A stretch of DNA of 20,854 nucleotides, from positions 1 through 20,854 of IMG/VR virus record IMGVR_UViG_3300027742_000038. One strand, written 5' to 3'. The DNA comes from a virus. The notes beneath the pieces are model-generated. The model was not told the origin of the DNA and ran no database searches. It saw only the letters and a program-made list of their open reading frames with translations. Below, piece after piece: positions 6,273 through 20,125 of this stretch (position 1 is its first letter; each line of letters opens with the position of its first letter). The position numbers and the translations under genes were made by a program.

Positions 6273-6728
6273 ATGGCAACATCTTTGCGGGGAATATATG
6301 ACCTTTTCATGCAACTTGTTACAGATTACAGATTAGATACTCTGTTTGATATAAATGAAGATGATTTTGATACATATTTGGAGGCATGGTTAATATTTGC
6401 TATTTCGGATTTTTCAAATTGTGACCAAAGTTTATGCTATGATGAATATTCAAAAGATTTTGATGTTACATTGACATCCCAAAATAAAGTTATTTTAGCT
6501 AAATTAATGATGAAATATTGGTTAAGAAAGCTTGTTAACGATATTACTCAAATGAATCTTCATATAACAGATAGAGATTTTAAAATGGCTTCGGAGGCAC
6601 AGAATTTAAAACAAAAAAGAGATTATATGTTAGCTGTCGAAGAAGAGTGTTCACAATTATTAAATAATTATGAATATGGCAATGTAACTTGGAGTGATTG
6701 GGCCAATCAAGATTTTTCAGGAGTATAA
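6273..6728 (+). CDS. Probable head-tail connector protein
   Basis: A 151-residue, mostly helical, acidic protein starting four bases after AAGGAGG (6262-6268). Size, helical content and position downstream of the capsid gene fit an adaptor (gp6/gp15-like) protein that sits under the portal. No diagnostic motif is visible, and the call is by gene order. Its stop codon is one base before the next start, so translation is probably coupled. Confidence 0.45.
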   Translation: MATSLRGIYDLFMQLVTDYRLDTLFDINEDDFDTYLEAWLIFAISDFSNCDQSLCYDEYSKDFDVTLTSQNKVILAKLMMKYWLRKLVNDITQMNLHITDRDFKMASEAQNLKQKRDYMLAVEEECSQLLNNYEYGNVTWSDWANQDFSGV

Positions 6729-6729
6729 T

Positions 6730-8031
6730 ATGACAAGTTATAAATATAAATATATACCATTACATAAAACAGCTTCTGAACATAAAGGAAATAGTCCTAA
6801 AGATAGTTACACAGAATTATTTCAAGAAACATTGGATAGACAATTTTATAATGCTTCAAACTGGTATAATATTCAAGAGGAAACATATATTGGTTCTGGA
6901 GAATATAAATATATAGACGTAAGAATTAGCCACGTTATTAACACTGAAACCGGTCTAAAATTAGGCGACGATTGGAAAACATTATATTTTAAAAATATAA
7001 CACACAATACTGAAATGGGAAAATATTATATATTTGATAACAATACATGGTTAACTATAAATAAAGAATTCAATAAAAATCTTGTGGGCATATGTACAAT
7101 AAGACGTTGCAATAATACTTTAAGGTGGATTGATGAGGAAACAGGCGCATATTATGAAGAGCCGTGTTCCGTAGAAGACCCCATTAAAGAACCAAGGAAT
7201 TATTTTACACAGGGGTCACCTTTTCCAATCCCCGGTGGTTTTCTTCATATACACACACAATTAAACGATAATACAAATTTAATAAAACCAAACCAGCGTT
7301 TTTTATTCGGTAATTCTAATCACTGGTCGGGTTGGAAAGTTGTCGGAGTTGGTATTAACGATTTTAGAAATGAAAAAACTTATGATATTGATTCATCAAA
7401 AGTTTTAACATTAGATTTGGTAGCAAATTTTATAAATGAAGAAATTGATGATATAACAAATGGAATTGCTGATGTTAATACAAATTTATATACATTAACA
7501 ATAAACAATTCAAGTATTGAAGGCTCTCCGGGAACAACATATCAATTATCGGCAGAAATAACTTATAATGGCAGAACTATTGATAGGACAATAACGTGGT
7601 CAACTACAAATTCTAATGTAGCAAACGTTGATTCAAATGGGCTTGTAACTTTTGTCTCCACGGGGGCATGTATTATTACAGCAACAATTTATGAAAATCC
7701 AGCGGGAGACACGTGTGGTGTAACTGTAACAAATACACCCGGTTCTAATTATGAAATTACTATATCCCCGGATACAAATTATATATTAGAAGGACTTTCT
7801 GGGACATATTCAGTATATTTACATGAAAACGGTGTTCAATTATCAAATATATTTGTTTGTTCTTGTTCCGGAAATGATGTACCAATTACAAACTACTCTT
7901 TTGCACAAACAGATAATAATCATTTTTCTGCATCAAATATAACCAGAGACGATTCATCTTATCTGACAATAAATTGTACATCCGGAAGTTATATTAAAAA
8001 TTTCAATATTTATTTAAAGGGAGCATGGTAA
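6730..8031 (+). CDS. Neck-region structural protein with two C-terminal Ig-like domains
   Basis: From the ATG at 6730, six bases after AGGAG (6719-6723), the protein has 433 residues. An upstream in-frame start at 6694 lies inside the previous gene and lacks a ribosome binding site. Residues 1-245 form a novel-looking domain rich in Asn and aromatics (HSGWKVVGVG-like strands around 200). Residues about 248-335 look like a bacterial Ig-like (BIG_2) domain: LSAEITYNGRTIDRTITWST, then SNVANVDSNGLVTFVSTGACIITA. Residues about 336-433 form a second beta-rich domain of similar size. Phage Ig-like domains are usually displayed on the virion surface and may bind carbohydrate. The N-terminal domain may be a head-closure or neck protein, by position only. 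Confidence 0.6.
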   Translation: MTSYKYKYIPLHKTASEHKGNSPKDSYTELFQETLDRQFYNASNWYNIQEETYIGSGEYKYIDVRISHVINTETGLKLGDDWKTLYFKNITHNTEMGKYYIFDNNTWLTINKEFNKNLVGICTIRRCNNTLRWIDEETGAYYEEPCSVEDPIKEPRNYFTQGSPFPIPGGFLHIHTQLNDNTNLIKPNQRFLFGNSNHWSGWKVVGVGINDFRNEKTYDIDSSKVLTLDLVANFINEEIDDITNGIADVNTNLYTLTINNSSIEGSPGTTYQLSAEITYNGRTIDRTITWSTTNSNVANVDSNGLVTFVSTGACIITATIYENPAGDTCGVTVTNTPGSNYEITISPDTNYILEGLSGTYSVYLHENGVQLSNIFVCSCSGNDVPITNYSFAQTDNNHFSASNITRDDSSYLTINCTSGSYIKNFNIYLKGAW

Positions 8032-11201: not shown

Positions 11202-11235
11202 AAATGTGCCACAATTTTTGTGGCACATTTATTTT
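11202..11235 (+). terminator. Strong intrinsic terminator
   Basis: A perfect 13-bp stem (AAATGTGCCACAA with TTGTGGCACATTT, 11202-11214 and 11218-11230) with a 3-base loop, followed by ATTTT. It starts 10 bases after the stop at 11192 and lies before the chaperone gene, whose ribosome binding site (AGGAG, 11240-11244) is immediately downstream. Confidence 0.8.
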
Positions 11236-11248
11236 AAATAGGAGAATC

Positions 11249-11806
11249 ATGGATAAAGTAAAATATGTATTTCGTCTTCCAGATGAAATTGAAATTGAAC
11301 ACAACGGTGTTAAAATAAAAATTGTTCCGTTTTTAAAAGCAAGCCAACAAATTTATTTAATAAATCAATATATAGAACAATATTTCGAAGAATTATCAGA
11401 AAAAGATAAAGTTGTTTCTTTATCAAAATATAATTATATGACCGCTGAATATAACATGCGCGGTTATATATATCAAATGTTAACTAACATTGACCATGAA
11501 AGTATAACACAAGAAACGCTCGGGGACGATATACTTTGGGATAAAATAGAAATTACAATTGTAAATTTCTATGATTTTTATTACAAAAATTTGGATTATA
11601 TTATTGAGGATATTAAATTTCAAATTCAAATTGAAAATTCTGTAGGAAATGTCATTGCAAATTTCTCAGATAAAATTTCCAATATATTGGATAAATTTTC
11701 TGAAATGACACCAGAAGAAATAGAAAAACTTCAAATCCAAGGAAAAGAATTATTAGAAGAATTAAAAGAAAACGCTATCATTAAAGATATGACAAGAAAG
11801 AAATAA
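11249..11806 (+). CDS. Probable tail assembly chaperone
   Basis: From the ATG at 11249, four bases after AGGAG, the protein has 185 residues. An in-frame ATG at 11204 lies within the terminator stem and is rejected. The N-terminus is beta-rich (YVFRLPDEIEIEHNGVKIKI) and the rest helical and acidic, ending TPEEIEKLQIQGKELLEEL. Position between tail tube and tape measure is the classic place for the gpG-type chaperone that coats the tape measure before tube assembly. A second ORF begins two bases after its stop in the -1 frame, as in gpG/gpGT pairs. No sequence motif is diagnostic, so the call is by context. Confidence 0.5.
   Translation: MDKVKYVFRLPDEIEIEHNGVKIKIVPFLKASQQIYLINQYIEQYFEELSEKDKVVSLSKYNYMTAEYNMRGYIYQMLTNIDHESITQETLGDDILWDKIEITIVNFYDFYYKNLDYIIEDIKFQIQIENSVGNVIANFSDKISNILDKFSEMTPEEIEKLQIQGKELLEELKENAIIKDMTRKK
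11797..11803 (+). other. Candidate weak -1 frameshift site
   Basis: A-AAG-AAA directly before the chaperone stop codon (11804-11806). The A-AAG step could let a lysine tRNA slip back one base, joining the chaperone frame to the zinc-ribbon frame, which is open from 11785 onward. The A-site codon would then mismatch (AAA to GAA), so the site is far from ideal. Recorded because frameshifting is common at this genomic position. Confidence 0.2.
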
Positions 11807-11808
11807 TT

Positions 11809-12006
11809 ATGTCTAATTTTGGCAAATTCAAGCGTACTCTAAAAAGAAAATGCCCGTTTTGCGGGAATGTTTTAGAAATTAGGGTTCATTATGAAAAAAA
11901 TTTAAATAAAGGCATTGAAATTGAAATTCCAATTGAATATATTGCCTGTTCTAACCGAGCTTGTTATTATGAAGAAGAAATGGAACAAAAAAGAAGAAAA
12001 AAATAA
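11809..12006 (+). CDS. Small zinc-ribbon protein
   Basis: A 65-residue, very basic protein with C15-P-F-C18-G and C47-S-N-R-A-C52, a CxxC...CxxxxC arrangement of a zinc ribbon. Its ends are Lys/Arg-rich (KRTLKRKC, and KRRKK at the C-terminus). It starts two bases after the chaperone stop and lacks a ribosome binding site, almost alone in this operon, which points to translational coupling or to expression by -1 frameshift as a fusion. Possible roles are the second half of the tail chaperone pair or a nucleic acid binding protein. The exact function is unknown. Confidence 0.6.
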   Translation: MSNFGKFKRTLKRKCPFCGNVLEIRVHYEKNLNKGIEIEIPIEYIACSNRACYYEEEMEQKRRKK

Positions 12007-12020
12007 AGAGAGGTTGTAAT

Positions 12021-13190
12021 ATGGCAAATCTTGAATTTGAAAATTTAGAAGAAAATTTTAAAAACCTTTTCAATATGAAATTTGAAATGGGTAAGAAAAA
12101 ACAATTAGCCATTGATATGTATAGCGATGCCGGTATTGGTAAAGAAAATGTTCCAGTTAAATTTTTATATAATACTCTAAACGATATAATGTTAAATACT
12201 TTTGCCCATACGGGTATTGGTGAATATTATCAGTTGCCAGCAGGAATAGAACTTAAAAATCCAACCCAAGAAACACTAATTAGAGACTCTAAAACTTTTG
12301 AAAAATTTCTTATCGAACAAGTAGAAAATTTAGTAAATGCGTCTGTTACAAATCGGGCCGTCGTATTGGGATTTCAAAATGAATTAGAGAAAATGTATGA
12401 AAGTTATACAACTGATGTTTTTACCGGGTCGCTTTTAGAGCGTATAGAACATAAACGAATAAGTCCGCAAAAATTTGGTACGTTTATTGAAAAAAATTAT
12501 TTTGCCTCATATACGAGAGGAAAAGCGAGCGACCCAAGAGCCGATATATTTGATTTAGCATTAGAAATAAAAACAACTGGTATATATAAGAAAAAATCCG
12601 AACTTAATGTTGGCAGTATTTCGGGCATATTTAGTGAATATTTTCATACCGAAGATAGTGCCGGAAACATAACCAAAGCAATATTAAAAGACGAAGAAAA
12701 ACTCGTATATAATATTCTTATAACAACATATAAAACTGTTCTTAAAATGAGAAATTTATTACTTATATTTACAAGAAACATTAGTGCAGAAAAAGGAAGA
12801 ATTGGTTTTCAAGAAATTGATTTGTTTACATTAATTAAAGCCAAAAGAGTTTATGACGAAATAAAAAAAGAATTAACCGGTCATGTTAGTGATATTATAT
12901 CCGTAGATATTACACCAAAAAAATCCGCTATAAATAAAAAAACCGGGAAAAAATGGGTAAAAAATACAATTACATATGAAGTAAAATTTAAAATGCCAAC
13001 AAGTGATGAATTAATTGCACAAGCGGGGGCTGGAAAACCATTTCTCGAAATGGAACAAATGAAAATAAAAGAATTATATCAACGGCAAATAGATTTGTTG
13101 TCTATCGCAAGAAAACCGTCTCAGGAAAGATTTAGAAGAGCGTTATTTGGTTTATTAAGATATAGAACTCAACGTTGGGCAAGAAAATAA
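12021..13190 (+). CDS. Putative MutH/Sau3AI-like endonuclease
   Basis: A 389-residue soluble protein after GAGAGG (12008-12013). The centre carries the active-site pattern of the MutH/Sau3AI branch of PD-(D/E)xK nucleases: KFGTFIEK with E157, then DPRADIFDLALEIKTTG with D175, E182 and K184. In E. coli MutH the equivalent stretch is E56, D70, E77, K79 in DFPELGVELKT; the D-x6-E-x-K spacing is identical, and ELKT/EIKT agree. Downstream, TVLKMRNLLLIF (239-250) fits the MutH strand that carries its further lysine. MutH and Sau3AI act at GATC. Residues 1-140 and about 280-389 are extra, and the C-terminus is strongly basic (RFRRALFGLLRYRTQRWARK). No GATC is found in this window. The family call comes from motif reading only; another PD-(D/E)xK nuclease is the main alternative. 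Confidence 0.6.
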   Translation: MANLEFENLEENFKNLFNMKFEMGKKKQLAIDMYSDAGIGKENVPVKFLYNTLNDIMLNTFAHTGIGEYYQLPAGIELKNPTQETLIRDSKTFEKFLIEQVENLVNASVTNRAVVLGFQNELEKMYESYTTDVFTGSLLERIEHKRISPQKFGTFIEKNYFASYTRGKASDPRADIFDLALEIKTTGIYKKKSELNVGSISGIFSEYFHTEDSAGNITKAILKDEEKLVYNILITTYKTVLKMRNLLLIFTRNISAEKGRIGFQEIDLFTLIKAKRVYDEIKKELTGHVSDIISVDITPKKSAINKKTGKKWVKNTITYEVKFKMPTSDELIAQAGAGKPFLEMEQMKIKELYQRQIDLLSIARKPSQERFRRALFGLLRYRTQRWARK

Positions 13191-13216: not shown

Positions 13217-13636
13217 ATGGAAAATATTTGGTTAGAAGTATTGGGAGAATTAGTTAATGTTATTTCCGGCGTTATACTCGCTGGTGTAAGTGGTTTAGGG
13301 GCATTTTATGTTACTAAACTAACAAAAAAAATGAAAAGAAAAGAATTTATAGAAGATATTGAAACCTACGTCAGAGGTGTTGAACAATCGCCTTTATATA
13401 GTTCCATGAAAGGCTCACAAAAGTTTATCAAAGTACAAGAATTTGCTAAAAGAAAGGCTATAGGATATGAAATAATTATATCAGAAGAAGAATTGGACCT
13501 GTTAATTGAATCCAAAGTACAACTAATGAATCAGGATATAAAACAATTAGCAAATATGTTAAATTTTCAAATTTCTGGTTCTTCTTTAAGTAATTTAGAT
13601 GATACACAAAAAATAAAAATAGAAGCAGAAGGTTAA
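13217..13636 (+). CDS. LLH-type holin-like membrane protein
   Basis: From the ATG at 13217, seven bases after AAGGAG, the protein has 139 residues. An upstream in-frame start at 13175 overlaps the nuclease gene and has no ribosome binding site. One hydrophobic segment near residues 5-33 (ELVNVISGVILAGVSGLGAF) is followed by a basic stretch (KLTKKMKRKE) and a soluble helical tail. One N-terminal membrane helix with a long charged cytoplasmic tail is the layout of phage LLH-family holins, which permeabilise the membrane at lysis. No endolysin gene is in the window. Confidence 0.6.
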   Translation: MENIWLEVLGELVNVISGVILAGVSGLGAFYVTKLTKKMKRKEFIEDIETYVRGVEQSPLYSSMKGSQKFIKVQEFAKRKAIGYEIIISEEELDLLIESKVQLMNQDIKQLANMLNFQISGSSLSNLDDTQKIKIEAEG

Positions 13637-13915: not shown

Positions 13916-13930
13916 ATGCGAAAGGAAAAT

Positions 13931-14428
13931 ATGTCGAAAAACAATGAAAGCATAAACACATTTAAAAAATATGTTTATGCTCTCGACTTATCTTTAAATT
14001 CAACCGGTATAGCTTTGTTTATAACAGATGGTCAATTTATAAAAACATTGACCATAGACACCCGTAAAGAAAAAGAAACAAAATTTAAACTTAAAAAAAT
14101 AGGGAAAACATTTTTGGAGCTTATTGAAAAATATCCACCAAAACTTGTTGCAATAGAACAGGGTTTTAGCCGTTTTAATAAAAGTACACAGGCAATATTT
14201 CGAGTTCACGGCATTACAAATTATTTATTTTGTGATTACGAACAAATTTATTATCCTTCTTCCAGTGTAAAGAAAATTATAACTGGAAAAGGAAATGTAA
14301 GCAAAAAAATAGTACAAGAATGTCTTTTAAACAAACATCCGCATATAAAATTCAAAAATTTTGATGAATCTGACGCTTTTGCGGTTGGGAAAACATATTT
14401 TATAGAAAAAGGAATTAAGATAAAATAA
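13931..14428 (+). CDS. ruvC: RuvC-like Holliday junction resolvase
   Basis: From the ATG at 13931, after AAAGGA (13921-13926), the protein has 165 residues, the normal RuvC length. An in-frame ATG at 13916 abuts the terminator and lacks a ribosome binding site. The four catalytic acids of the RNase H-like RuvC fold are all present: D19 in ALDLSLNSTGIALF, E76 in VAIEQGF, and D145 and D148 in FDESDAFAV, with the same three-residue spacing as E. coli D138 and D141. The enzyme would cut branched DNA made during replication and recombination, so that packaging can proceed. It sits between the holins and the tape measure. Confidence 0.8.
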   Translation: MSKNNESINTFKKYVYALDLSLNSTGIALFITDGQFIKTLTIDTRKEKETKFKLKKIGKTFLELIEKYPPKLVAIEQGFSRFNKSTQAIFRVHGITNYLFCDYEQIYYPSSSVKKIITGKGNVSKKIVQECLLNKHPHIKFKNFDESDAFAVGKTYFIEKGIKIK

Positions 14429-14446: not shown

Positions 14447-17400
14447 ATGGCAGGCGAAAGTTCGTTTATTGTTAATTTTGACCTCATACCAAAAGTAGAT
14501 GTTTCCAAAATGCAATCTGAAATCACGAAAATAAAATCTGTTATTTCACAAGATTTTAGTCAAAGTGATATTAATTTTGGTAGTCCAAAATTTGAAAACA
14601 TATCCAACATTAATGAAATGCAAACAGCTATTGAAAAAATAAAACAAAATGCAGAAAATGCTGGCTTATCTATGGGCAGCCTTAAATTAGAAACAGAACA
14701 GTTTGTGGTTCAAGGAAAAGAAGTTGAAGTTGTAACAAAACTTATGGCGGATTTATCAGACGGGGGGGCATATACAAAAAAAGTAATTGCTGATATAGGA
14801 ACAGCTTTTACAACTTTAAATCAAAGTAAACAATATGTCGAAAATTTAACTCAAAAAATGAACGAAATGGAAGCCCGTGCTCAATCAATGAGTGGCAAAA
14901 ACAAAGACGCAGTTATGGCACAGGTTACTGCTATAAGAAACCAAATAACAGCATATAAACAATTGGATACTGCTCAAAATCCAGCAAAAGTAAAAGAATA
15001 TATTTCAACTCTAAAAGAGCTAGAAAATAAATTAAATACAATAGTTGCGGGCACAAAACGTACAGCAAGCGGACTTCAAAATTGGGTTTCTACTATGGGG
15101 CGGGCTATTAAACAAACCATTGCTTATAGCACTTCTCTTAAATTAATACAACTGGCACAACAAATGGTAAATGAAGCTATACAATATACCATTGATTTAA
15201 ATAAACAAATGGTAAATATTCAATTGCTTCAAGTACAAGGAGCACAATCTCCGGAAGAAATAAGTGCCTTAGCAAATTCTTATAATCAATTGGCGCAAGA
15301 ATATGGTGCTACCACCATGGAAGTCGCAAAAGGCAGTGTCGAATGGTTAAGACAGGGTAAAACCATTCAAGAAACTTCTGAGCTTTTGAAATCTTCAACA
15401 ATGTTGGCTAAATTAGGTAATATGGAAGTTGCAGGAGCTACAGAGGCATTAACTTCTACTTTGAATTCTTATCGTATGGAAGCAGACCAAGCGGTTAGCG
15501 TTGTTGATAAATTAATTGCAGTTGACAATATCGCTGCTACCAGTGCACGAGAAATGGCTGTTGCCATGCGATATGTGGCTTCTACATCATCCGAAGCCGG
15601 CGTTTCAATTGACCAATTGATTTCTTATATTGCTGTAATGTCCTCAACCACTCGTTTAAATGCAGAATCAATTGGTCAAAGCTTAAAAACAATGTTTACT
15701 CGCATGGAAGATATTAAAGCGGGAGCATTAGATTCGGAAGGTTTGGGCATTAACGATGTCGAAAGAGCTTTGGGAAGAGTTAATTTGACTTTGAGAAATT
15801 CTGATGGAACTTGGCGTGATTTAGGTATTGTTCTTGAAGAAGTTGCTGGAAAATGGAATACTTTAGATGAAATCGAACAAAAAAATATCGCTAGAGCCAT
15901 AGCCGGTACAAGACAAAGAAACTTGTTTATGGTTTTAATGCAAAATATGGGCACAGCCTTAGAATATCAAGCAGAACAAACAGATTCGGCTGGTTTAGCA
16001 TGGGATAGATATCAGATTTATCTTGATAGTGTAGAAGCAAAACAAAACCAATTGAAAGCATCTATTGAAGGATTATATATGGATGCTTTAGAAGATGGTT
16101 TAATAACAACGATTTATGATGCTGGAATTTCTGCTGTTGATTTTATAGATAAGGTGGGGGGAATTCGAACGGGCATACTTTTATTAGTTGGGGCCATTGG
16201 TATATTGAAAGCAACAGAAATTGGTGCTTGGGTAACAAAAATAGTAACAAATTTTAAAGCATTAGGTACAGTTATTAAAATAGTAAATATACAAACCGGT
16301 TTTACCATTGGGGAATTGGGAATAGCTATACCTGTAATTGAAAGTACAAAGATTGCAACTTTTTCATTATCAGCGGCTTTTCTTGGTTTGTGGGAATCTA
16401 TGCTTCCATTTCTTGCTCCAGCGGCGGTTATAGCCGGTATAGTTGGCATTGGCATTGCATTAGGATACGCAAATAAAGAGGCGGAACGGGCAAAAGAAGC
16501 GTGGGAAAAAACAAAAGAAAGTTATAATGAACTTTCTTCGGAATTAGAATCAAAAAAAGCAATACTTTCTGTTGCACAACAATATGTTACATTAAAAAAT
16601 ACACAGAATAAAACAAAAAAAGAAATGCAAGAATTTTATAATATCACTCAAGATTTAGTTGCTTTAATGCCGGATTTAAGAATAACAACAGATGAATATG
16701 GTAATACTCTTATTGCTGTTGGACAAAATATTGACGGTGTTATTGATAAAATAAATGAAGAAATTGAAGCCTTAGAAAGAAAACAACAGCTTGAGCTTGA
16801 AATCGGGGCAGAAACAGAAGCGGAAAATCTTTTAGTATTATACGATGAATTGACCGCTGCTAAAGAAAAATTTCAAGATACGGGCTCTGGAACAGACGAA
16901 TTAGCAATGATTAATGCCCAAGAAGCATTTGATACAGCAATGGAAGATGCTTTAGCTCGATGGGAAATATACGGAGAAAAGGCAAGGGGCCTTTTCATGC
17001 GCGGATTGACAAAAAGTAAAGGAATGGGGGCAACTGATAGTGGTTTTGCCCAAAAATTCTTAAAAGAAACAATGTATTCAGATGAAGCGGAAATTGAAGA
17101 ATATCACAGAAAACAGGCAGAAAAACAAGCACAGGCATATGCGGATGAATTAGAAAATGCATTAAAAAGATATACTGGAAAAATAAAAATAATGCCTGAA
17201 ATAGATTTAGATGAATCTGAGTTTTCAAAAACTATAAATGAATTTGAAGAATCATTTTCAGACTTAGAAAAAATAACCAAAAATATAGATTTGGGGGATT
17301 GGTTAGATGATAGTCAACTTTCACTAATAGAAAGTTTAAATATAGAAGTAACTCATTTAGCAAACGGTCAACAACAATTACGGTCATCAAGTGGACAATT

Positions 17401-20125
17401 AATTACTACAACTGCCCAACTTGTTGAAGAATATATTAAAGAAAAAATAAACATACTTAATATAAGTGATGCTCAAAAAGAAGAAATTGCTGAAATATTA
17501 AGATTAATTATGGCAAACAATCAATTGGAAGATTCTACACAAAAACAAATAGACGCTTTAGCCGATTTAGATTCACAAGCAGATAAAACTTCTTCCGGGT
17601 ATCAAACACTCGGGAATGTTTTAGAAAAATATACACAAACAGGTAACTGGACTCTCGATATGGCTCGGCAACTTATTGATGCCGGTTATGCCGAGGCTGT
17701 TTCTATAAATGAACAGACAGGGGCAGTAACAGTTGATATACAAAAACTGGCAGAATTAGCTGCTGAAAAAGCAAGAAATATTTCATTAAGTTATAGCCAA
17801 CAATACGCGGAATTATCTCTTACAGACGCTCTTTCCAATGAAGCTTTGGCAGCCCTTGCTGCTGCAAAAGCGTGGGAAGAAAAAGCAAAAGCAATGGAAA
17901 AAGAAGCTGTTAGTGCGGAAGAAGTTCTTGATTTGCTATCCCAAATAGGAAGTTTTAGCTTCAGTGGTGGCGGTGGCGGCGGTGGCGGTAGTGCTGAAAA
18001 AGAACTTACAGCATTAGATAAAGAAGTTGTACAATTAGAAAAAGATATAAAATCTTTACAAAGAACCATTGAAGATGCCAATGAAGAATTTGATGATTGG
18101 TTAACTGCACAAAATGATTTAATTTTCCAATGGGAAGATTCTATTTTTTGGATTGAAAAGAATTATGAAAATTTAATACAACCATTGGAAGATGCAAATG
18201 ATGCTTTACAAGCAGAAATAGATGAATCAGCAGAAGCACTAGATGATTTAAAATGGTTATATCAGGAACGTTTATGGGTACTAGAAGATGAAATTAATGG
18301 TTATAATGACCAAATTGATGCTATAAATAATGCGTTAGATGCACAAGAAAAAGCATGGGATAGTCAGATTGCCGGTTTAAAAACCCAAATTGATGCTTTA
18401 AAAGAGCAAAAGAAAGCCATTGAAGATGCGGCGGATATTGTCATAGAAGGTTACGAAAACCAGATAGATGATATTGAAGAATTAATTGACGCAGAAGAAG
18501 AACGTGCCGATATTTCTGTTGAAGGATATGAAGATGAAATTGATGCATTGGAAGAAACTTTAGATTCTTATAATGATTATATTGACGCACAAAAGAAATC
18601 TCTTAAATTAATGAAAGAAGAAGAAGATTATTTAAGCAGTCTTGAAGAAAAAAATAAAGATTTAGCAGATTTAAAATCTGAAATAGCACTTTTAGCTTTA
18701 GATGATAGCGAAGAAGCTATCGCAAAAAGATTAAAATTAGAAGAAGAAGCAAGTAATTTAGAAGGAGAAATTGCTGAAGATGAACGAGATAGAGAATATG
18801 ACTTAAAAGTTCAAGCGTTAGAAGATGCTCAAGAAGCTTTTGAAAACAGCATTGAAGCACAAATAAAAGCCATTGAAGATTTAATAGATGCTACAGAAAA
18901 ACAAAGCAAAGCGATTACAGACGCTTATGAATTGCAAATAAAACAACTCGAAGATTTGATTCAAACAAAAGAAGACGAAACTGAAACAGCCGTAAACGGT
19001 ATTGAGTCTCAAATTGATACTTTAAATACTCAAATAGATACAATTAACAAATTGAAAGAAACGGCACAGCAACAAGCAGAACAACAAATTGCTGACATTC
19101 AGGCTGAAATTGACATTCGGCAACAAGAAATTGATACTATAACCCGAACCATCGAAGAGGCGCAAAGAGAACACGACATTCTTGTTCATCAACATGAAGA
19201 AGAAATGGAAGCAAATCAAGAAAGAATTGATGCGTTAGAACAAGAACGAGATGCTCTTATTAGTGTTTATCAAGAATGGATTGATGGTTTACAATATATT
19301 ATAAAACAAAGGCAACATGCTCACAACCAGTATATGGAACAACTTGACGATGAATTGCGAGCATTACAACGAAATCTTGATAAACTCAGAGAAATGCAGG
19401 CTGCGGAAAATAATGGTGGAGGTGGCGGTGGAGGTGGCGGTGGAGGTGGCGGTGGAGGTGGCGGTGATAATAATTTTATTCCACAACTTAAAAATTATGC
19501 AAATAGTTTAGCGGATAGTTATCATTTAACAGATGATAACGCTACATCTCTTCGTGTTTACGCTCAAAGTCAGGGGAATCAAGTAAACAACGGCACTTTG
19601 GGTTTGGCTGACGCGGAAGCCAACATACAATCTAAAGCCTATTCTTTATTAACAGCACAAAATTCATCTCCTACACCTGTTGCCGGATTGCCCACTGAAC
19701 CGGGCCAACCCGCAACACCCGTACATTCTGGCGGTATTGTTGGTTATCACTCTGGTGGTAATGTTGATATTGAAAAACATCACGATGGAGTTGGTAGTTG
19801 GGCTGGTGGTTTGCGCAGTAATGAAGTATTTGCAAAATTATTGCGTGGAGAATATGTTTCTACCGAAAATGAAATGAAAAATTTCTTACAAAACATATTG
19901 CCAAAAATAATATCAAAAAGTCGTGATATTCCACGGATAACACCTGTTTCGAGAATACAAAACGGAGGAAATATTACAGTAAGTATGCCAATAAATGTAG
20001 AGGGAAATCTTGATAAAACTGTTTTACCTGATATTGAAAAAGTTGCCGATAAAGTTATTGGAAAAATCAATGAATCATTGAGGAATCGTGGTATAAAAAG
20101 AAATGCTGGAAATTTCAGTATATAA
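14447..20125 (+). CDS. Tail tape measure protein
   Basis: A 1892-residue protein starting seven bases after AGGAGG (14434-14439). Residues about 1-230 are helical. Residues about 250-550 match the TP901-type tape measure core (SAREMAVAMRYVASTSSEAG, AESIGQSLKTMFTRMEDIKA, then AIAGTRQRNLFMVLMQNMGT). Hydrophobic segments near 571-590 and 659-675 could enter the host membrane during DNA ejection. An eight-glycine run (1174-1181) and a 17-glycine run (1657-1673) bracket about 475 residues of acidic coiled coil with degenerate repeats. The C-terminal domain (HSGGIVGYHSGGN, LRSNEVFAKLLRGEYVSTEN) is typical of Firmicutes tape measures. At about 0.15 nm per residue the tail would be near 280 nm long. 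It sets tail length and forms the channel plug. Confidence 0.9.
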   Translation: MAGESSFIVNFDLIPKVDVSKMQSEITKIKSVISQDFSQSDINFGSPKFENISNINEMQTAIEKIKQNAENAGLSMGSLKLETEQFVVQGKEVEVVTKLMADLSDGGAYTKKVIADIGTAFTTLNQSKQYVENLTQKMNEMEARAQSMSGKNKDAVMAQVTAIRNQITAYKQLDTAQNPAKVKEYISTLKELENKLNTIVAGTKRTASGLQNWVSTMGRAIKQTIAYSTSLKLIQLAQQMVNEAIQYTIDLNKQMVNIQLLQVQGAQSPEEISALANSYNQLAQEYGATTMEVAKGSVEWLRQGKTIQETSELLKSSTMLAKLGNMEVAGATEALTSTLNSYRMEADQAVSVVDKLIAVDNIAATSAREMAVAMRYVASTSSEAGVSIDQLISYIAVMSSTTRLNAESIGQSLKTMFTRMEDIKAGALDSEGLGINDVERALGRVNLTLRNSDGTWRDLGIVLEEVAGKWNTLDEIEQKNIARAIAGTRQRNLFMVLMQNMGTALEYQAEQTDSAGLAWDRYQIYLDSVEAKQNQLKASIEGLYMDALEDGLITTIYDAGISAVDFIDKVGGIRTGILLLVGAIGILKATEIGAWVTKIVTNFKALGTVIKIVNIQTGFTIGELGIAIPVIESTKIATFSLSAAFLGLWESMLPFLAPAAVIAGIVGIGIALGYANKEAERAKEAWEKTKESYNELSSELESKKAILSVAQQYVTLKNTQNKTKKEMQEFYNITQDLVALMPDLRITTDEYGNTLIAVGQNIDGVIDKINEEIEALERKQQLELEIGAETEAENLLVLYDELTAAKEKFQDTGSGTDELAMINAQEAFDTAMEDALARWEIYGEKARGLFMRGLTKSKGMGATDSGFAQKFLKETMYSDEAEIEEYHRKQAEKQAQAYADELENALKRYTGKIKIMPEIDLDESEFSKTINEFEESFSDLEKITKNIDLGDWLDDSQLSLIESLNIEVTHLANGQQQLRSSSGQLITTTAQLVEEYIKEKINILNISDAQKEEIAEILRLIMANNQLEDSTQKQIDALADLDSQADKTSSGYQTLGNVLEKYTQTGNWTLDMARQLIDAGYAEAVSINEQTGAVTVDIQKLAELAAEKARNISLSYSQQYAELSLTDALSNEALAALAAAKAWEEKAKAMEKEAVSAEEVLDLLSQIGSFSFSGGGGGGGGSAEKELTALDKEVVQLEKDIKSLQRTIEDANEEFDDWLTAQNDLIFQWEDSIFWIEKNYENLIQPLEDANDALQAEIDESAEALDDLKWLYQERLWVLEDEINGYNDQIDAINNALDAQEKAWDSQIAGLKTQIDALKEQKKAIEDAADIVIEGYENQIDDIEELIDAEEERADISVEGYEDEIDALEETLDSYNDYIDAQKKSLKLMKEEEDYLSSLEEKNKDLADLKSEIALLALDDSEEAIAKRLKLEEEASNLEGEIAEDERDREYDLKVQALEDAQEAFENSIEAQIKAIEDLIDATEKQSKAITDAYELQIKQLEDLIQTKEDETETAVNGIESQIDTLNTQIDTINKLKETAQQQAEQQIADIQAEIDIRQQEIDTITRTIEEAQREHDILVHQHEEEMEANQERIDALEQERDALISVYQEWIDGLQYIIKQRQHAHNQYMEQLDDELRALQRNLDKLREMQAAENNGGGGGGGGGGGGGGGGGDNNFIPQLKNYANSLADSYHLTDDNATSLRVYAQSQGNQVNNGTLGLADAEANIQSKAYSLLTAQNSSPTPVAGLPTEPGQPATPVHSGGIVGYHSGGNVDIEKHHDGVGSWAGGLRSNEVFAKLLRGEYVSTENEMKNFLQNILPKIISKSRDIPRITPVSRIQNGGNITVSMPINVEGNLDKTVLPDIEKVADKVIGKINESLRNRGIKRNAGNFSI
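17966..17989 (+). repeat. First polyglycine tract of tape measure (8 codons)
   Basis: Eight consecutive GGT/GGC codons, a G-rich island in AT-rich coding sequence. It encodes residues 1174-1181, a flexible linker between the helical middle and the coiled-coil block. Confidence 0.85.
19415..19465 (+). repeat. Second polyglycine tract: four 12-base repeats plus GGT (17 codons)
   Basis: Four exact copies of GGTGGAGGTGGC followed by GGT, encoding residues 1657-1673 of the tape measure. The repeat is in frame, so gain or loss of a unit would change the linker by four glycines without a frameshift. Confidence 0.9.

Follow-up and report, generated by a model that had tools for sequence, protein, structure and literature searches.

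The stretch of DNA analysed here, called the window in the following, is the IMG/VR record IMGVR_UViG_3300027742_000038 with its 20,854 bases and is most likely a fragment of a phage genome. It encodes a portal protein (match to PHROG 2739, E 1.7e-55) that resembles the portals of phages of Enterocloster, Lactococcus and staphylococci with genomes of roughly 100-135 kb, and another contig from this phage is 99.8% identical. The host was sought in two scans of bacterial genomes and none was found there. The genes and signals of the region are:

6694-8031: virion-type protein that contains a Big_2 domain, of the bacterial Ig-like kind (PF02368, E 1.1e-9)
11204..11806, plus strand: gp11204, function unassigned, upstream neighbour and slot marker in relatives
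11809..12006, plus strand: gp11809, small zinc-ribbon protein directly upstream of the nuclease gene, slot marker in relatives
12010..12013, plus strand: ribosome binding site GAGG for the nuclease gene, read from the sequence
12021..13190, plus strand: P0001, intact ORF with ATG start, 389 amino acids, predicted PD-(D/E)xK nuclease of the MutH/MvaI branch, member of a hypervariable family at a fixed slot
13217..13636, plus strand: holin-like protein (PF09682 Holin_LLH, E 8e-10)
13916..14428, plus strand: RuvC-like Holliday junction resolvase (PF02075); some relatives have a RusA-like ORF in its place
14447..20125, plus strand: tape-measure-like protein of 1892 amino acids, downstream landmark of the slot

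The ORF at 12021-13190, which the initial annotation had described as a MutH/Sau3AI-like nuclease gene in a late structural operon, is genuine: it is intact, begins with ATG and has the GAGG ahead of it. The setting is confirmed by the portal gene, the holin-like and RuvC-like neighbours and the long tape-measure-like ORF. Translation of the holin-like protein more probably begins at the ATG at 13217, which follows AAGGAG, than at the TTG at 13175. The zinc-ribbon protein gp11809 shows a weak match, under the cut-off, to Lar, a protein of restriction alleviation (PF14354, E 4.4e-4), and is conserved in relatives without the nuclease gene too.

Using the conserved neighbours gp8036 and tape measure, about 90 related loci were gathered, most of them on records that are fragments. 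The gene order is largely kept and runs from gp11204 and gp11809 over the protein in the slot to a small ORF (often holin-like), RuvC/RusA, integrase and tape measure. In one clade the nuclease is found at this one slot in 23 of 23 readable members, as a protein of 300-423 amino acids in which G-x-F-x-(E/Q) is followed by a D, by E-x-K and, further on, by K-(M/I/L), and P0001 would be the local allele of this clade-wide family. The sister clades have the same RuvC-integrase-tape measure order, and their slot contains a short unrelated ORF or lacks the gene altogether. Common ancestry of the nuclease with this short ORF was rejected (hhalign probability 0.2%). Gene 00033 of the Enterocloster phage CB457P1, of similar size and near position, proved to be a tape-measure fragment and not a homologue.

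The RuvC-like (window 13916-14428) and RusA-like resolvases (for instance L009 6346-6813) interchange at the same place. In most relatives, but not in the window, the late operon includes a tyrosine recombinase gene directly ahead of the tape measure gene (L009 7043-8008 is an example). In several relatives, an inserted ORF of 157-395 amino acids interrupts the tape measure gene, much as an intron or a homing gene would (L051 16486-20516, L102 9806-15130, L070 12898-16035 and L013 17266-22964).

The location among the resolvase and recombinase genes of the late operon, together with the presence in all members of the clade that could be read, would be in line with a role in late DNA processing, in which the enzyme acts with RuvC/RusA and the recombinase to trim or nick replicating phage DNA before packaging. 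However, the sister clades keep the same gene order without the gene, and a housekeeping function fails to explain a divergence that is far above that of every neighbour (see below). We consider such a role unlikely.

The putative active site was identified by comparison with MutH, and its codons are located as follows:

12489..12491, plus strand: E157, pairs with MutH E56; among 18 members the residue is E in 14 and Q in 4
12543..12545, plus strand: D175, pairs with MutH D70, invariant
12564..12566, plus strand: E182, pairs with MutH E77, invariant
12570..12572, plus strand: K184, pairs with MutH K79, invariant
12744..12746, plus strand: K242, pairs with MutH K116, invariant

These pairs (MutH E56/D70/E77/K79/K116 with E157/D175/E182/K184/K242) are those of the hhalign alignment. 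Across 21 diverged members G153, F155, D175, E182, K184 and K242 (P0001 numbering) are invariant. The PD...(D/E)xK motif of the nuclease superfamily is present with its D, E and K unchanged in all 21, and the accessory residues of the MutH type, E56 and K116, are matched by E157 (E or Q) and the invariant K242. E157, D175, E182 and K184 as well as the EIKT motif had been placed correctly before, and K242 had been missed. The D-x6-E-x-K spacing, which had also been taken as a MutH feature, is found in P0001 but is not a trait of the family, since the gap between D and E varies from x4 to x62 over 18 members.

In hhalign comparisons the scores were 29.7 for Sau3AI, 29.1 for MutH and 27.2 for MvaI (overall range 24.7-29.7); with null sets made up of phage ORFs and seven E. 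coli proteins, 288 unrelated phage ORFs reached at most 21.1, reversed sequences 10-16 and other E. coli PD-(D/E)xK nucleases (Vsr, Mrr, McrC, HsdR, RecB) 9-14.5. A sequence-profile search of the PDB returned MvaI as the sole match (E 0.029). The AlphaFold model of P0001, a low-confidence prediction (pLDDT 63) that is weak outside the core, resembles MvaI (Z 7.4), BcnI (Z 6.8), MutH (Z 6.5) and Sau3AI (Z 4.8). The model of the relative L041 (pLDDT 74) matches MvaI with Z 8.3 (rmsd 4.2 over 166 residues), followed by BcnI (Z 7.7), MutH (Z 6.8) and Sau3AI (Z 4.8), where Z values of 7-8 are modest, and down to rank 16 its matches are type II enzymes and MutH only. With the alpha/beta core of the PD-(D/E)xK superfamily, both predicted models have type II restriction enzymes as their top matches.

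By sequence profiles and models, the family belongs to the MutH/MvaI/BcnI/Sau3AI branch of PD-(D/E)xK nucleases, and by predicted structure it is closer to MvaI and BcnI than to MutH. The original reading as a MutH/Sau3AI-like nuclease is therefore upheld by the catalytic residues in 21 members, hhalign, the PDB profile match to MvaI and the two models; the structure prediction that it had called for yields the PD-(D/E)xK fold, with MvaI, BcnI, MutH and Sau3AI as best matches.

Profile databases contain little that resembles the family. P0001 reaches 12.5 bits with the MutH profile PF02976 over the catalytic motif, below the cut-off of 23, and PF15515 (MvaI_BcnI) finds no match in the window or in ten related records. 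P0001 alone matches no Pfam, no PHROG and none of 50,697 phage records, and a search of IMG/VR with it returned only the near-identical contig. No model of Pfam, PHROGs, PADLOC or NCBIfam matched the members of the alignment consistently, and the nucleases would be an unrecorded phage family added to a branch that is best known from mismatch repair and restriction. A Pfam match of P0001 to XisI (E 0.014) was judged to be due to chance, and resemblance to the tail terminator fold was rejected, with probabilities that reach just 0.23.

A weak fold resemblance to tail terminator or completion proteins and the location in the structural operon might also suggest a virion protein with a structural or DNA-binding function that has kept a nuclease fold and is catalytically dead. 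This explanation is very improbable, because the catalytic residues are all invariant while the remainder of the protein goes down to 12-44% identity, and nuclease folds rank at the top.

Within the clade the median pairwise identity of the nuclease is 18.7% (range 12.4-43.7), compared with 71% for gp8036, 62% for gp8613, 61% for MTP, 57% for gp11809 and RuvC, 42% for TMP, 40% for gp11204 and 74% for the integrase. RuvC is a second variable spot, weaker than the nuclease. In close pairs of phages, DNA similarity is 79-84% up to a few bases from the start codon and 89-93% from the stop codon onwards. The blastn alignment of L026 and L029 ends 2 bp ahead of the start and picks up again 6 bp past the stop, and L017 and L026 show the same pattern within 2 bp. 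Since the alleles are strongly diverged and the difference is confined to the ORF, diversifying or replacing selection that spares the catalytic residues is indicated.

Either whole-ORF allele swapping or very fast divergence could generate this pattern. The nucleases of L020 and L097 are the most similar after those of L037 and L041, yet their neighbour genes are not the closest, and a conflict between the topologies of nuclease and neighbours gave p values of 0.014-0.23 in four tests (0.014 and 0.02 in two, the other two not significant), which is no more than suggestive of allele exchange over fast divergence. Under both processes the active site stays intact, and thus an active enzyme is favoured.

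A divergence that is limited to the ORF, with closely similar flanks, would also fit a free-standing homing endonuclease, each allele of which cuts the same place in co-infecting phages carrying another allele and copies itself in; this idea overlaps with a role in conflict. Homing genes usually have a scattered distribution, whereas this gene is fixed in the clade, and we know of no homing enzyme that belongs to the MutH/MvaI branch. Phages are known to have nuclease genes located at boundaries of exchange (PMC10448857). Taken together, homing has in our opinion only a small chance of being the explanation.

The window contains no GATC, as the initial annotation had noted, compared with 38.9 sites expected from trinucleotides and 44.8 +/- 6.3 in the shuffled window with both strands counted, and the second contig has none either. 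The absence is total and is not explained by composition. CCWGG is missing from the window too (0 versus 10 expected), thus GATC is not the sole missing site.

It had been proposed that the enzyme attacks host or rival DNA at GATC, the phage itself being immune through loss of the site. The absence from the window, the GATC cutters MutH and Sau3AI in the same branch and the weak PF02976 match are in line with this proposal, as is the observation that GATC is the only type II site missing from all tested carriers but one. In total 22 of 23 carriers avoid GATC, with 0 of 213, 215, 176 and 184 expected sites in the gene-bearing G010, G051, G052 and G018, respectively. A Fisher test of gene presence against GATC absence gives a p value of 0.008, which was set aside because the gene has a single origin and therefore provides one independent contrast.

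However, related phages without the gene avoid GATC as fully, an outcome that the initial annotation itself had named as refuting its proposal: the complete Enterocloster phage CB457P1 (W01) has 0 of 231 expected sites and the long record G039 has 0 of 306. One carrier (G007/L016), in turn, does contain GATC, with 16-17 sites where about 42 are expected, and one of them lies inside the gene (L016:14618). A tree built from two neighbour proteins shows one change in the state of the gene and seven in the presence of GATC. The loss of GATC is thus independent of the nuclease gene. Moreover, GATC specificity does not follow from membership in the family, because the branch includes enzymes with other sites: MutH and Sau3AI cut GATC, MvaI cuts CCWGG and BcnI CCSGG, and it is the latter two that fit the models better. 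GATC is a possible target but not a favoured one, and the combination of a GATC nuclease with self-immunity by site loss is improbable.

Further type II sites (CCWGG, GGCC, GGWCC, GCWGC, CATG, CGCG) are purged in varying sets among the relatives, which also argues against the GATC proposal, and no single site is missing from every carrier. Several restriction-type sites are purged at once in G051 (L127-L131), G052 (L132-L135) and G039 (L103-L109); G051 has CCWGG 0/137, GCWGC 0/109, GGWCC 0/75 and the non-palindromic CCCAG 0/99, and G039 has CATG 0/378. CCWGG as a common target, an idea derived from MvaI, was rejected, since G010, G018 and G037 have the gene as well as CCWGG sites. Among palindromes of up to 6 bp, no purged site was seen to track the allele in close pairs; close phages with different alleles have GATC and GGCC losses in common.

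Dam-type methyltransferases (PF02086) are encoded by the two long GATC-bearing relatives G034 (70436-71092) and G044 (113667-114359); in the small sample of six long GATC-free records no PF02086 match was found. No PF02086, PF00145 or PF01555 match was found in the window or in most carriers, the records being fragmentary, and the carrier G010 encodes a distant C5 methyltransferase. A linked cognate methyltransferase, by which a type II restriction-modification system is defined, was not found in these fragmentary records. Loss of GATC sites has been described for the staphylococcal phage K (roughly 140 kb) and ascribed to Sau3A restriction (PMC6532042). In the phages studied here, GATC loss is best explained as a separate trait that arose because hosts restrict DNA at GATC and at further type II sites; most of the phages would have answered this restriction by site loss and at least two by Dam-type methylation. 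With site loss and GATC-type methyltransferases as alternative states, this phage group offers a good natural test of restriction escape. The case further illustrates that the presence of a nuclease gene and the disappearance of a restriction site, although readily linked, are to be kept apart.

The overall best explanation, which on balance we hold to be probable, is that P0001 is an active late nuclease of the MutH/MvaI branch that has been diversified by conflict between genomes. The fold and the active site are demonstrated computationally, by alignment and models, and DNA cleavage activity and late timing are suggested by conservation and gene order. P0001 would then be a metal-dependent DNA endonuclease, made late in infection, that cuts or nicks specific sequences in the presence of Mg. 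A fixed slot and an invariant active site, with nearly all else changed, resemble arms-race genes and not housekeeping genes. Conflict with other DNA in the cell would be the most economical role: rival phages or satellites might be cut at allele-specific sequences, or homing-like cutting might spread the allele itself. A more far-reaching version is tentative and rather doubtful as a whole: the clade might keep an obligatory, polymorphic late nuclease of restriction type without a methyltransferase. Its alleles would have different targets and be exchanged as complete ORFs, and it would act against co-infecting phages or satellites as a weapon or a gene drive, while the phage would protect itself by lacking the target.

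Among known systems, the type II enzymes MvaI and BcnI (PF15515) are the best structural matches of the L041 model, and the alignment covers the whole catalytic domain. In contrast to them, the phage family was found without a PF15515 match or partner methyltransferase, and it is phage-borne, probably late, hypervariable and equipped with extra N-terminal helices. MutH and Sau3AI (PF02976) are similar in that conserved residues of the family align with all five catalytic residues of MutH and hhalign scores are far above the controls; the family differs from them in staying under the Pfam cut-off and in its variable D-E spacing. Phage K is comparable in the loss of GATC sites, which bears on the explanation by host restriction only; no relative of the nuclease was found in the phage collection. 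Phage homing endonuclease genes of the T5orf172 and HNH families coincide with boundaries of exchange (PMC10448857), and the nuclease ORF studied here falls on such a boundary as well. However, the P0001 family is fixed in its clade instead of scattered and has a predicted fold other than T5orf172 or HNH. Finally, Odn of phage ICP1 is a phage nuclease that cuts the replication origins of a satellite and is encoded at a locus that varies between isolates (PMC8263062). Its nuclease and binding domains are different, and in the family described here it is the whole ORF that varies; nevertheless, Odn may serve as a functional precedent for a phage nuclease that is aimed at another genome.
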